A stretch of 12,374 nucleotides of DNA from Candidatus Helarchaeota archaeon (GTDB lineage: Archaea > Asgardarchaeota > Lokiarchaeia > Helarchaeales > JABXJV01), in NCBI GenBank assembly GCA_013375355.1, contig JABXJV010000437.1, forward strand, positions 1 through 12,374. Reading direction: 5' to 3'. Positions 5,368 through 10,812 of the stretch are shown in pieces. A program made the translations under genes and the position numbers. The notes below the pieces were generated by a model. The model searched no databases. It saw only the letters and a list, made by a program, of their open reading frames with translations, and was not told the DNA's origin. Numbering within the stretch: position 1 is the stretch's first letter; each line of letters opens with the position of its first letter.

Positions 5368-5559
5368 TTAATTAGTTTCTACTTCAATAGCATTTTCTGG
5401 ACATTGATCTTGGCAAGCTAGGCATTCAATGCTTTCATCTTCTGCAACGACTTTAGTCTTACCTGCTGCGTTATCTAACTGGTATACCCCACTCGGGCAA
5501 AGATCCACGTATGTTCCACAACCAGTACATTTATCTATGTCTACTTTAATTTTTGGCAT
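5368..5559 (-). CDS. Degenerate 2[4Fe-4S]-type ferredoxin, one ligand lost per cluster
   Basis: A 63-residue paralogue of the ferredoxin encoded 56 nt upstream; both begin MPKI-VD-DKCTGCGT. Complete ferredoxins have two C-x2-C-x2-C-x3-C-P motifs. Here motif 1 is C11, C14, Y17, C21 and motif 2 is S43, C46, C49, C53. Position 17 has TAC and position 43 has AGC, each one base from the TGC cysteine codon. In this fold each cluster takes three cysteines from one motif and the fourth from the other, so each cluster is left with three cysteine ligands. It could carry 3Fe-4S clusters, use the serine as a ligand, or have become structural. The frame is intact and the rest is well conserved, so it is not obviously a pseudogene. 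AGGT lies 8 nt before the ATG. Confidence 0.9.
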   Translation of the reverse strand: MPKIKVDIDKCTGCGTYVDLCPSGVYQLDNAAGKTKVVAEDESIECLACQDQCPENAIEVETN

Positions 5560-5615
5560 ATCTCTTTACCTACTTCCATCTTTCTATTAAGAATTACCAG
5601 AGGAAAAAATTCTTT

Positions 5616-5807
5616 TTAATCCCCTTGTACTTCAATAGCAGTTTCTGGGCATTGATCAACGCAAGCAAGACACTCTATACATTCATCCTCATTAACTCTG
5701 CTTGTCTTTCCTGTGGCATCATTTAATTCAAATACTCCACTTGGACAGACATCGACGCAGGTTCCGCATCCTGTGCATTTATCATCATCAACAATAATTT
5801 TTGGCAT
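5616..5807 (-). CDS. 2[4Fe-4S] ferredoxin
   Basis: A 63-residue low-potential electron carrier with both canonical motifs complete: C11, C14, C17, C21-P and C43, C46, C49, C53-P. The two-fold pseudo-symmetric clostridial-type ferredoxin fold covers the whole protein, with an acidic surface. Likely partners are oxidoreductases such as pyruvate or 2-oxoacid ferredoxin oxidoreductases encoded elsewhere. It is first of two tandem ferredoxins and lies 63 nt downstream of cysS on the same strand. A TATA-like CTATAAAA at 5848-5841 suggests its own promoter. AAGGA is 11 nt before the ATG, a long spacing. Confidence 0.95.
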   Translation of the reverse strand: MPKIIVDDDKCTGCGTCVDVCPSGVFELNDATGKTSRVNEDECIECLACVDQCPETAIEVQGD

Positions 5808-8359: not shown

Positions 8360-8393
8360 GTTATTAAATTAGATGGTCATTGGAGGAAATTTA

Positions 8394-9908
8394 ATGAAAA
8401 TCGAAGTGGAAAAAAACTCGCTCTTGAATGTCGATGCAGAATCCTTAGTTATTGGCATATTTGAAAACATAGAAGATTCAAAACACCTCATTGATGAAAT
8501 TGATGCAAAGCTGGATGGCTCTATTAATGAACGGATAGAAATTGGTGATTTTAAAGGAAAAATGGGACAAATTTCAACTATTTATACGCGTAAAAAGATT
8601 CCTGCTAAAAGAATTTTGTTGGTTGGCCTCGGTAAAAAAGAAGATTTAGATTATGAAAGAATTAGGCGAGTAAGTGGAATCGTAATAAAGAAAATTCGAG
8701 ATTCTGAGGTTAAAAAATTTAAAATCTGGCTAATGGGATTGGAAAAAACAGATCTAAAAGTTGAAGAAATAGCTCGAGCAATTACAGAAGGAGCTATATT
8801 AGGAAATTATAAATTTTATATACATAAGACTGAAAAATTAGATGAAATTAAGTTAGTAGAAGAATTTTCTGTTGTTTATAATGATTTAATTGATGAAATT
8901 AAGAATGGAATTCGATCTGGTCAAATAATTGCAGAGGCAACAAATTTTTCAAAAGATCTGACTAATGAACCAGCAAATATTGCAACTCCTACTTATATCG
9001 CAGAACAAGCAAAAAAAATGGCAGATGAATTAGGAATTAAATGTAACATTTATGGGGAAAAAGAAATAGAAGAAATGAAAATGGGTTCCTTTCTATCAGT
9101 CGCAAGAGGAAGTAATGAACCTTGTAAATTAGTAGTATTAGATTATAATCCTAATGAAAATTTAGAAACCATCGTTTTAATCGGAAAAGGAATTACTTTC
9201 GATACTGGTGGAATCTCCATTAAGCCATCAATGGGTATGTGGGAAATGAAGCAAGATATGGCTGGTGCGGCGGCAGTTATTGGGGCTTTAAAAGCTATTT
9301 CGCAGTTAAAAAGTCCATTACATATTGTAGGAATTACTCCGCTTACAGAAAACACACCTGGTGGTAGAGATCCTAATTTACCAGGAGATATAGTTAAGAG
9401 CCGTAAAGGTAAGACGATTGAAATTTTACATACTGATGCGGAAGGGCGTTTAATTCTTATTGATGTATTAGATTATGCTAATGAATTCAAGCCTAAAGTA
9501 GTTGTAGATATTGCCACTCTAACTGGGGCATGCGCTGTTGCCCTTGGAATTTACGCTTCTGGACTTTTCACTACAGACGATGATCTAGCAAATAAATTAA
9601 TTGAAGCCGGAGAAGAGACTCAAGAAAGATTATGGAGGCTTCCTTTATGGAAAGATCATGAGAAAATCATGGAGAGTAAGATAGCAGATGTTAGGAATAT
9701 TAATCCAAATCGTAAAGAAGGGGCTGGAGCTTCTAATGCGGCGGGATTTTTGAAACATTTCATTGGGGATTATAGATGGGCACATATTGATATAGCTGGT
9801 ACTGATTTGGAATCAAAAGGGAAAGATTATACTCCTCCAGGCGCATCAGGAGTTGGAGTTCGCTTAATTGTACAATTTCTTAAAAATTGGGGTAAAAAAA
9901 GTGGTTAA
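8394..9908 (+). CDS. pepA: Leucyl aminopeptidase, M17 family
   Basis: Two-metal aminopeptidase that removes N-terminal residues from peptides in the cytosol, usually as a hexamer; it would finish peptides released by the proteasome. Numbered from ATG 8394 the protein has 504 residues, the family norm. The N-terminal macro-like domain covers about 1-160 and the catalytic domain about 180-500. Metal and catalytic residues align with E. coli PepA: K265, D270 (GKGITFD), K277, D288, D348, E350 and R352. The M17 signature reads HTDAEGRL where NTDAEGRL is usual, a substitution next to the metal site. ATG 8394 is chosen because GGAGG lies 7 nt before it. An in-frame ATG at 8373 adds seven residues but precedes that ribosome site and lies near the predicted transcription start. 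Terminator signals after the gene are weak. Confidence 0.95.
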   Translation: MKIEVEKNSLLNVDAESLVIGIFENIEDSKHLIDEIDAKLDGSINERIEIGDFKGKMGQISTIYTRKKIPAKRILLVGLGKKEDLDYERIRRVSGIVIKKIRDSEVKKFKIWLMGLEKTDLKVEEIARAITEGAILGNYKFYIHKTEKLDEIKLVEEFSVVYNDLIDEIKNGIRSGQIIAEATNFSKDLTNEPANIATPTYIAEQAKKMADELGIKCNIYGEKEIEEMKMGSFLSVARGSNEPCKLVVLDYNPNENLETIVLIGKGITFDTGGISIKPSMGMWEMKQDMAGAAAVIGALKAISQLKSPLHIVGITPLTENTPGGRDPNLPGDIVKSRKGKTIEILHTDAEGRLILIDVLDYANEFKPKVVVDIATLTGACAVALGIYASGLFTTDDDLANKLIEAGEETQERLWRLPLWKDHEKIMESKIADVRNINPNRKEGAGASNAAGFLKHFIGDYRWAHIDIAGTDLESKGKDYTPPGASGVGVRLIVQFLKNWGKKSG

Positions 9909-9985: not shown

Positions 9986-10020
9986 TCCTATAATCTTAAC
10001 AAATTAAATAAGTGATAAAA

Positions 10021-10278
10021 ATGGTAAATTATCGATTTAGATTATTAGGAGTTCCCCCAGATCAAGCAGTAAAAACTGGAGATATTGATGTTAATCAAAA
10101 TGTCGCAGAAATAAAGAAGATAATAAGAAACGTATATAAATTAAACCCTATTGTGACAATTCAATTCATCCATAAAGGCAAAGTTTTACCTAATAATGTT
10201 AGATTTGCAAGTTTAGGTATAATCCCAAAAAAAGATGTTATAACAGTTATGGCAAGTCAAGTAGGGGGTAAAAATTAA
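10021..10278 (+). CDS. Ubiquitin-like protein with di-glycine followed by a two-residue tail
   Basis: An 85-residue beta-grasp protein matching ubiquitin along most of its length. Strand 2 is DIDVNQN, followed by the central helix VAEIKKIIRNVYK. The segment IQFIHKGKVLPNNVRFASLGI aligns with ubiquitin's LIFAGKQLEDGRTLSDYNI, and DVITVMASQVGG aligns with the last strand and LRLRGG end. The di-glycine is at 82-83 and is followed by K84 and N85. A protease of the JAMM/Rpn11 type would need to remove the last two residues to expose the conjugating glycine, as known for archaeal ubiquitin-like systems of Caldiarchaeum and Asgard archaea. ATG 10021 is chosen with GTGAT four nt upstream; GTG 10012 would overlap that site and add three residues. 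Archaeal SAMPs end directly at GG, so this is closer to ubiquitin. It is a single gene with no E1, E2, E3 or protease in the window. Confidence 0.85.
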   Translation: MVNYRFRLLGVPPDQAVKTGDIDVNQNVAEIKKIIRNVYKLNPIVTIQFIHKGKVLPNNVRFASLGIIPKKDVITVMASQVGGKN

Positions 10279-10341: not shown

Positions 10342-10812
10342 TTATTCAATTTCTACTTTCTTCTTTGTTCTTTTTATTGGTGCATTGATTTGAAGGATAC
10401 CTTTTTTAAAATCGGCCTTTATATCATCAGTATTTATCTTTACTGGCAACTTCAACGATTTATGGAAATATTGAAAGTTTTTCTGAAATGATTCCGTTCC
10501 CCATTTTTCAAATTTAATTTCGGATTTCATTTTTGCTTCAATTTCTATTGAATCTTCTGTTACATTTATTTCAACATCAGATTTATCTACGTTGGGTAAA
10601 TCAGCTGTTAAAATAACCTCGTCTTTAGTAATTCTGTAATCTATCAATGGTTGAAGGCAACAGAGTTCATCGTCCCAACTTGGGGAAAAAGTGCGTAAAC
10701 TGAACATATCTCTAAATTTACGTTCCATATCTGCAAAAAGATCATCATATAGGTCAAATATTGACTTTCTATGCCTCATAATTTTCATTTTTTTGTTATT
10801 TTCTTCACTCAT
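10342..10812 (-). CDS. hsp20: Small heat-shock protein, Hsp20/alpha-crystallin family
   Basis: ATP-independent chaperone that holds unfolding proteins, normally as large oligomers in the cytosol. The 156 residues comprise a charged N-terminal arm (about 1-54), an alpha-crystallin domain (about 55-146) and a short basic tail. The domain contains PLIDYRITKDEVILTADLP, the loop around EKWGTESFQKNFQYF, and the hallmark A133-DFKK-G138-I-L140. The tail carries V153-E-I155, an I/V-x-I/V motif that docks into neighbouring subunits. The ATG at 10812 has a strong GAGGTG ribosome site that overlaps the TGA stop of the PAC2 gene; only 9 nt separate the genes, so they form one operon. A heat-shock chaperone made together with a proteasome-assembly protein suggests joint induction under protein stress (inference). 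Confidence 0.95.
   Translation of the reverse strand: MSEENNKKMKIMRHRKSIFDLYDDLFADMERKFRDMFSLRTFSPSWDDELCCLQPLIDYRITKDEVILTADLPNVDKSDVEINVTEDSIEIEAKMKSEIKFEKWGTESFQKNFQYFHKSLKLPVKINTDDIKADFKKGILQINAPIKRTKKKVEIE

Follow-up and report, generated by a model that had tools for sequence, protein, structure and literature searches.

The last repeat of eukaryotic polyubiquitin ends in a di-glycine followed by one variable cap residue, and SAMP and Urm1 are small modifiers with a terminal di-glycine. In Caldiarchaeum subterraneum, according to the consulted parts of two reports, the ubiquitin gene lies in an operon with E1, E2 and RING genes, and the JAMM protease Rpn11 cuts after the di-glycine to remove a nine-residue tail, the uncut form being refractory to E1 (PMC5654768, PMC6043591). 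SAMP precursors are also spoken of in this organism, in one of these reports (PMC6043591). Loki- and Helarchaeota possess genes for ubiquitin, E2-like/UEV proteins and ESCRT components, as given in the consulted sections of an account of the Asgard ubiquitin-ESCRT system (PMC9192718). Archaeal ubiquitin genes are known from operons; the separation of modifiers from enzymes that led to the dispersed gene arrangement of eukaryotes has yet to be explained. The gene described here stands alone in a stretch of 12,374 nucleotides from Candidatus Helarchaeota (the window). Its stand-alone family is called lone Ub below, and the enzymes of a gene cluster without a ubiquitin (Ub) gene are called orphan E1 and E2.

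The window gene and its surroundings

The gene, its signals and its neighbours are located as follows.

8373..9908, + strand: M17 aminopeptidase, upstream neighbour; same order in L001
10010..10016, + strand: AAGTGAT, probable Shine-Dalgarno core 5' of the ATG at 10021; holds the in-frame GTG at 10012
10021..10278, + strand: stand-alone ubiquitin-like coding sequence, 85 aa, stop included in the coordinates; homologues, L001 synteny, dN/dS
10264..10269, + strand: di-glycine codons, G82-G83; GG in 63/63 orthologous loci
10270..10275, + strand: codons of the two-residue cap, K84-N85; orthologue tails of 0-7 residues, unconserved
10342..10812, - strand: Hsp20 protein, downstream neighbour; same order in L001
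10822..11610, - strand: PAC2-family protein; same order in L001
11931..12374, + strand: GrpE, incomplete at the window end; same order in L001

Translation of 10021-10278 (+) gives 85 aa and agrees with the frame ending in GG-KN claimed by the first-pass annotation, the C-terminus being VMASQVGG-KN followed by the stop. The frame is a real gene, as judged from 13 database homologues besides itself, from its orthologue L001 of Helarchaeota LW55_61, which is the nearest protein (88% amino acid identity), and from the divergence between these two genes (dN 0.059, dS 0.265). An alternative in-frame GTG start at 10012 gives a protein three residues longer. The ATG at 10021 looks like the preferred start, because the GTGAT at 10012 resembles a Shine-Dalgarno core and the ATG position is used by most orthologues; similar Shine-Dalgarno-like motifs lie upstream of many of them.

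The lone-Ub family was found in 63 of the 227 genomes of the phylum (E<=1e-20). Scanning the genomes with sequence patterns yielded 63 loci, in records named Helarchaeota, Lokiarchaeota/Lokiarchaeia or Sigynarchaeota. Most genomes have a single locus, and some have two. Of the 95 stretches matched by the patterns, 32 encode no relative; the patterns lie upstream of GG, and therefore GG itself was not selected for. The set of 59 rows used below comprises 58 loci and the window, L059-L063 being left out with their N-terminus missing. Sixteen of the 59 genes (L013, L022, L024, L029, L030, L031, L033, L035, L039, L040, L042-L045, L051 and L054) have no in-frame ATG, GTG, TTG or CTG from the upstream stop to Tyr4. 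Their start position is occupied by ATT (14) or ACG (2), mostly after a GTGAT- or TGTGA-like motif, and they probably use non-AUG starts.

Two copies are present in LW55_61, L001 of the window type (SQVGG-KN) and L003 (TQAGG-L), and the window gene corresponds to the second of the helarchaeal copies, which adjoins the Hsp20, PAC2 and GrpE genes. The neighbours that L001 has in common with the window keep their order. Because L001 alone of the 63 loci has the same chaperone/PAC2 context, the neighbourhood is a weak hint only and was dropped as a functional clue; a role of the window gene in protein quality control would be a guess. The window also encodes TBP and, at 5368-5807 (-), a tandem pair of 63-aa ferredoxin-like proteins that look nearly duplicated by eye.

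No E1, E2, RING or JAMM was found among the ten window proteins scanned, nor any cascade match in the window. We further compared the ORFs of 64 loci (the 63 and the window), several of them with short flanks, with 20 reference proteins from five cascades. Fifty loci had no match, 13 have a ThiF-like gene 4-8 kb off that is 24-32% identical to the E1 of the T2 cascade described below, and a cascade E2, of the orphan type, lies near one alone (L007). The claim that the gene stands outside a Caldiarchaeum-type E1-E2-RING-Rpn11 cluster is thus borne out.

Ubiquitin kinship and the C-terminal di-glycine

By profile comparison, the window protein is a member of the ubiquitin superfamily, and we infer a beta-grasp fold for it. 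It matches PF00240 with E 2e-4 and 21.5 bits, under the curated cut-off of 25.4, which is passed by five Loki/Sigyn lone Ubs (33-43 bits) and narrowly missed by four helarchaeal ones (23.0-24.6 bits). Among solved chains, a family profile of 34 sequences finds Get5/Mdy2 (E 7e-7), RAD23B (3e-4) and ISG15 (1e-3), and it reaches ubiquitin itself mainly via tandem copies, at about 8.5 bits each. In a profile comparison, residues 19-71 line up with human ubiquitin 14-65 (E 5e-4, 32% probability only). In this weak-probability alignment, no variation is seen across the 59 sequences at the positions matching K27, I44 and G47, and the position matching K48 is constant in 58/59. The N-terminal 12-20 residues lie outside the alignment in all these matches, so the likeness to ubiquitin proposed in the first pass holds as kinship and is overstated as an alignment along the whole length. 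Among other modifier families, ThiS, MoaD and Urm1 gave no match when Pfam and NCBIfam were searched to E=1, where HMMER filters drop most hits above about 0.1. UFM1 was rejected as a relative, being alike in length and in a short stretch by eye, whereas the Ufm1 profile found nothing at E values of 1 or below; the single terminal Gly of the UFM1 type is absent from the window protein, which has GG. No viral relative was confirmed.

The di-glycine is kept in all 63 loci, and the residues after it number 0 in 19, 1 in 37, 2 in 5, 3 in 1 and 7 in 1, with no conserved tail motif among them. Apart from the query, 13 homologues were found in the database, and 12 of them have GG, P0013 being the exception. 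The tail is at most two residues long in 57 of 59 complete genes (mean 0.95), compared with a mean of 15.6 and 20% at <=2 in control frames directly downstream (n=176), the lone-Ub rows being related to one another, so that the significance of this difference is overstated. On a DNA tree of the 59 rows with many weak branches, the fewest changes required are 12 for tail presence and 31 for the exact tail. The constancy of GG against variable tails, together with these counts, indicates that GG is strictly kept and that the cap drifts. Read most simply, the mature protein would end at GG, with any cap trimmed off, and maturation of the GG-KN form by a protease is a fair inference. The first pass had expected homologues to conserve both GG and the extra residues; the former is kept and the latter are not. 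It had also taken the tail to set the protein apart from SAMP and Urm1. This distinction falls, with 19 of 63 loci tail-less and with the SAMP precursors spoken of in the consulted part of the Caldiarchaeum report (PMC6043591); the tail is not diagnostic because many orthologues end at GG like SAMP or Urm1.

The last basic residue ahead of GG, as read from the sequence, is K71. A tryptic remnant would consequently span the 12 residues 72-83 (DVITVMASQVGG; in most orthologues DVITVMATQAGG), and the mass spectrometry of GG remnants proposed earlier would, with trypsin, miss lone-Ub conjugates.

Several further relatives were noted. L202:4935-6671 (+) encodes a 578-aa protein with a near-N-terminal lone-Ub-family domain ending in SGG, then many Cys-pair zinc-finger-like motifs; Pfam names its Ub domain alone, weakly. 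Two small stand-alone relatives are GG-less, L212:5432-5710 (-) ending in NPNKI and L209:983-1237 (+) ending in NPNP.

Two readings without a dedicated ubiquitin cascade have to be weighed here. Lone Ub might be a SAMP/Urm1-like carrier or an E2-independent modifier, with a MoeB/ThiF-like E1 (MoeB is our label) acting on GG for sulfur transfer or simple tagging. The 19 loci that end exactly at GG and the 13 with a ThiF-like gene within 4-8 kb are consistent with this, whereas the kinship lies with PF00240 and UBL domains and the ThiS, MoaD and Urm1 searches were empty; we hold this reading to be quite improbable. Lone Ub might instead be a non-covalent UBL adaptor of the Get5/RAD23 kind for chaperones or the proteasome, its GG being structural or a relict. 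The best solved relatives are indeed the Get5 and RAD23 UBL domains, which are not known to be conjugated and so count against conjugation of lone Ub, and related domains in larger proteins as well as the window neighbours Hsp20, PAC2 and GrpE would suit such a role. However, GG is invariant and lies 0-2 residues from the end in 57/59, and its loss in the diverged relatives L212, L209 and P0013 implies that it is not kept by default, which makes an adaptor very unlikely in our judgement.

Conjugation enzymes in related genomes

The first pass had reasoned that the enzymes must be elsewhere or the system reduced. They are encoded elsewhere in close relatives, and a reduced system is not supported by the nearest genome, G001 (LW55_61), which has 9 ThiF, 5 UQ_con and 7 JAB matches. 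The genome check for E1 and JAMM proposed there, made in relatives of the window, found E1, E2 and JAMM proteins in G001 and six others, all seven having 3-9 ThiF, 2-5 UQ_con and 5-9 JAB matches. At least two Ub-bearing E1-E2 clusters are present in G001, besides one E1-E2-JAMM cluster without a Ub gene. The Ub-bearing cascades of related genomes are given under our own names.

T1: JAMM-E2-E1-Ub; Ub end S[T/I]AG; from gene maps
T2: E1-E2-Ub; Ub end TEGG; with a RING-like protein that scores under the Pfam cut-offs; mapped in two Helarchaeota
T3: JAMM-E2-E1-Ub; one genome, Helarchaeota G003, L158:3899-6341
T4: JAMM-E1-E2-Ub; Ub end VIGG + 0-2 residues; adjoins a nitrilase-like gene

With 62 bits, the T3 Ub fits the PF00240 model much more closely than the window protein does, and it ends in SIAG plus eight residues. 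The T1-type Ubs L144, L149, L153, L155 and L164 have the S[T/I]AG end with one glycine and are tail-less in 4/5, L164 ending in AGGF; they carry long, often acidic N-terminal extensions, and several copies occur in G005. One Loki chromosome encodes three JAMM proteins close together (L151:3867-8716; 321, 491 and 447 aa), of which the 491-aa protein shares 42% identity across 201 aa with the JAMM from the Ub-less cluster of Helarchaeota. The nitrilase-like/JAMM/E1/E2 cluster was rejected as a Ub-less partner, having its own adjoining Ub.

The Ub-less cluster of LW55_61 (L145) is composed of a UQ_con-related 421-aa protein, which may be a UEV, an E1, an E2, a JAMM, one further ThiF protein and a VWA protein, whose RING-like fingers give RING matches under the cut-off. 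No PF00240 match was found in it. Its parts are distributed on two contigs in Helarchaeota G002, likewise without Ub. A check of 36 Ub-less-cluster loci gave no plausible GG-ending ORF; the few GG-ending ORFs there have no ubiquitin likeness by eye, and those placed are antisense to E1 or E2. The motif CTxKGxPxxRxHC, which we take to be the catalytic Cys site, is invariant in 6/6 orphan E1s, and HPN and Cys92 are present in 3/3 orphan E2s. In a tree that has some long branches and does not include the T4 E1, the seven orphan E1s sampled (Hel, Loki, CR_4 and Sigyn genomes) cluster together, separate from the T1-T3 E1s, with support 99/99. Orphan E2 is present in 63/227 phylum genomes (E<=1e-45, weaker fragments such as that of G157 being left out and the E2 of G006, broken by a run of N, being counted absent). 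Orphan E1 is present in at least 68 (>=350 bits plus one G071 fragment adjoining orphan E2; next hit 346 bits). The two lie within 6.2 kb of each other in 46 of the 58 genomes with both.

Counting E1 among the matches listed, an orphan E1 or E2 occurs in 58 of 63 lone-Ub genomes versus 15 of 164 others, and lone Ub or either enzyme is present in 78 genomes, of which 58 combine Ub with an enzyme, 5 have Ub only and 15 enzyme only. This co-distribution amounts to one clade and is therefore compatible with joint function and no proof of it. The sole direct linkage (1/64 loci) is found at L007, contig C630 of G160, in the order lone Ub (366-617), a protein of 379 aa that contains another lone-Ub-family domain (807-1946) and orphan E2 (1934-2452), the lone Ub lying 1.3 kb from the E2. 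This adjacency is a modest but specific hint of pairing.

On balance we lean, by a narrow measure, towards lone Ub as a GG-ended modifier whose cap is trimmed and which is served by a dedicated Ub-less E1-E2(-JAMM) set. It would be made as a nearly mature precursor, from which a protease, most simply JAMM, would trim 0-2 (rarely more) residues after G83. The exposed GG would be activated by the dedicated E1 and handed to the dedicated E2, which would join lone Ub to substrates, perhaps assisted by a RING-like factor. The genes of the putative partners in related genomes, E1 and E2 and for two Helarchaeota also JAMM, lie elsewhere, in clusters where no Ub gene was found.

Several observations count against this proposal. 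Inside the clade, Ub and enzyme show no additional association, and G154, G181, G191, G193 and G214 have lone Ub and neither orphan enzyme, E1 being counted among the matches listed; G193 carries two lone Ubs on long contigs and T1-like E1 and E2 only. Direct linkage is scarce, two lone-Ub copies face one orphan-type E2 in LW55_61, and tail-less orthologues would need no protease for trimming. Stand-alone T1- and T4-type Ubs, both found in G005 (L153 and L152), could serve the Ub-less cluster, and thus the argument by elimination is weakened.

Such copies also bear on another explanation, that lone Ub is conjugated via a Ub-bearing cascade (T1, T2, T4) or a shared E1 and that the Ub-less cluster has a different partner, for instance a T1-type Ub that stands alone. 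G193, where lone Ub occurs with T1-like enzymes and no orphan E1 or E2 is among the matches listed, would fit it, as would the coexistence of several cascades and the T1 E2 and JAMM without an adjoining Ub at L141 of G006, where the E1 is truncated. Against it, each of these cascades has its own adjoining Ub with a different C-terminus (S[T/I]AG, TEGG, VIGG) in at least one genome, and the next-best E1/E2 homologues, T1-like by score, are found in many genomes without lone Ub; we regard this explanation as unlikely.

Returning to the pairing of lone Ub with the orphan enzymes, a wider picture has, to our mind, a chance just short of even: several parallel ubiquitin systems per Lokiarchaeia cell, one with its modifier uncoupled from the enzyme genes as in eukaryotes and with a drifting, JAMM-trimmed cap, duplications and fusions having carried the modifier domain into larger proteins, including one with many zinc-finger-like motifs.

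Comparison with known systems

A conserved stand-alone Ub and a Ub-less E1-E2 set in the same Asgard genomes make a well-defined pair for testing. The drifting cap amounts to an experiment of nature, in which capped and cap-less orthologues predict when a protease is needed. No description of the lone-Ub family or its tails was found in the literature searched, which was seen in part, with preprints and most subscription papers outside it. In the consulted sections on the Asgard ubiquitin-ESCRT system, the stand-alone family and its tails are likewise not described, whereas the candidate UEV related to UQ_con in the Ub-less helarchaeal cluster is a point of likeness (PMC9192718). As far as the consulted parts of the Caldiarchaeum reports go, lone Ub resembles that system as an archaeal ubiquitin-family protein with GG and a tail, and trimming of the cap would fit the processing by Rpn11 there; it differs from the operon-borne gene with a nine-residue tail in standing alone and in its mostly 0-2, unconserved residues. 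Lone Ub is like SAMP and Urm1 in small size and GG end and unlike them in having no sequence-family match. With the last polyubiquitin repeat it shares GG and a variable cap, but it is encoded by a monomer gene and the cap is missing in 19 of 63 loci.
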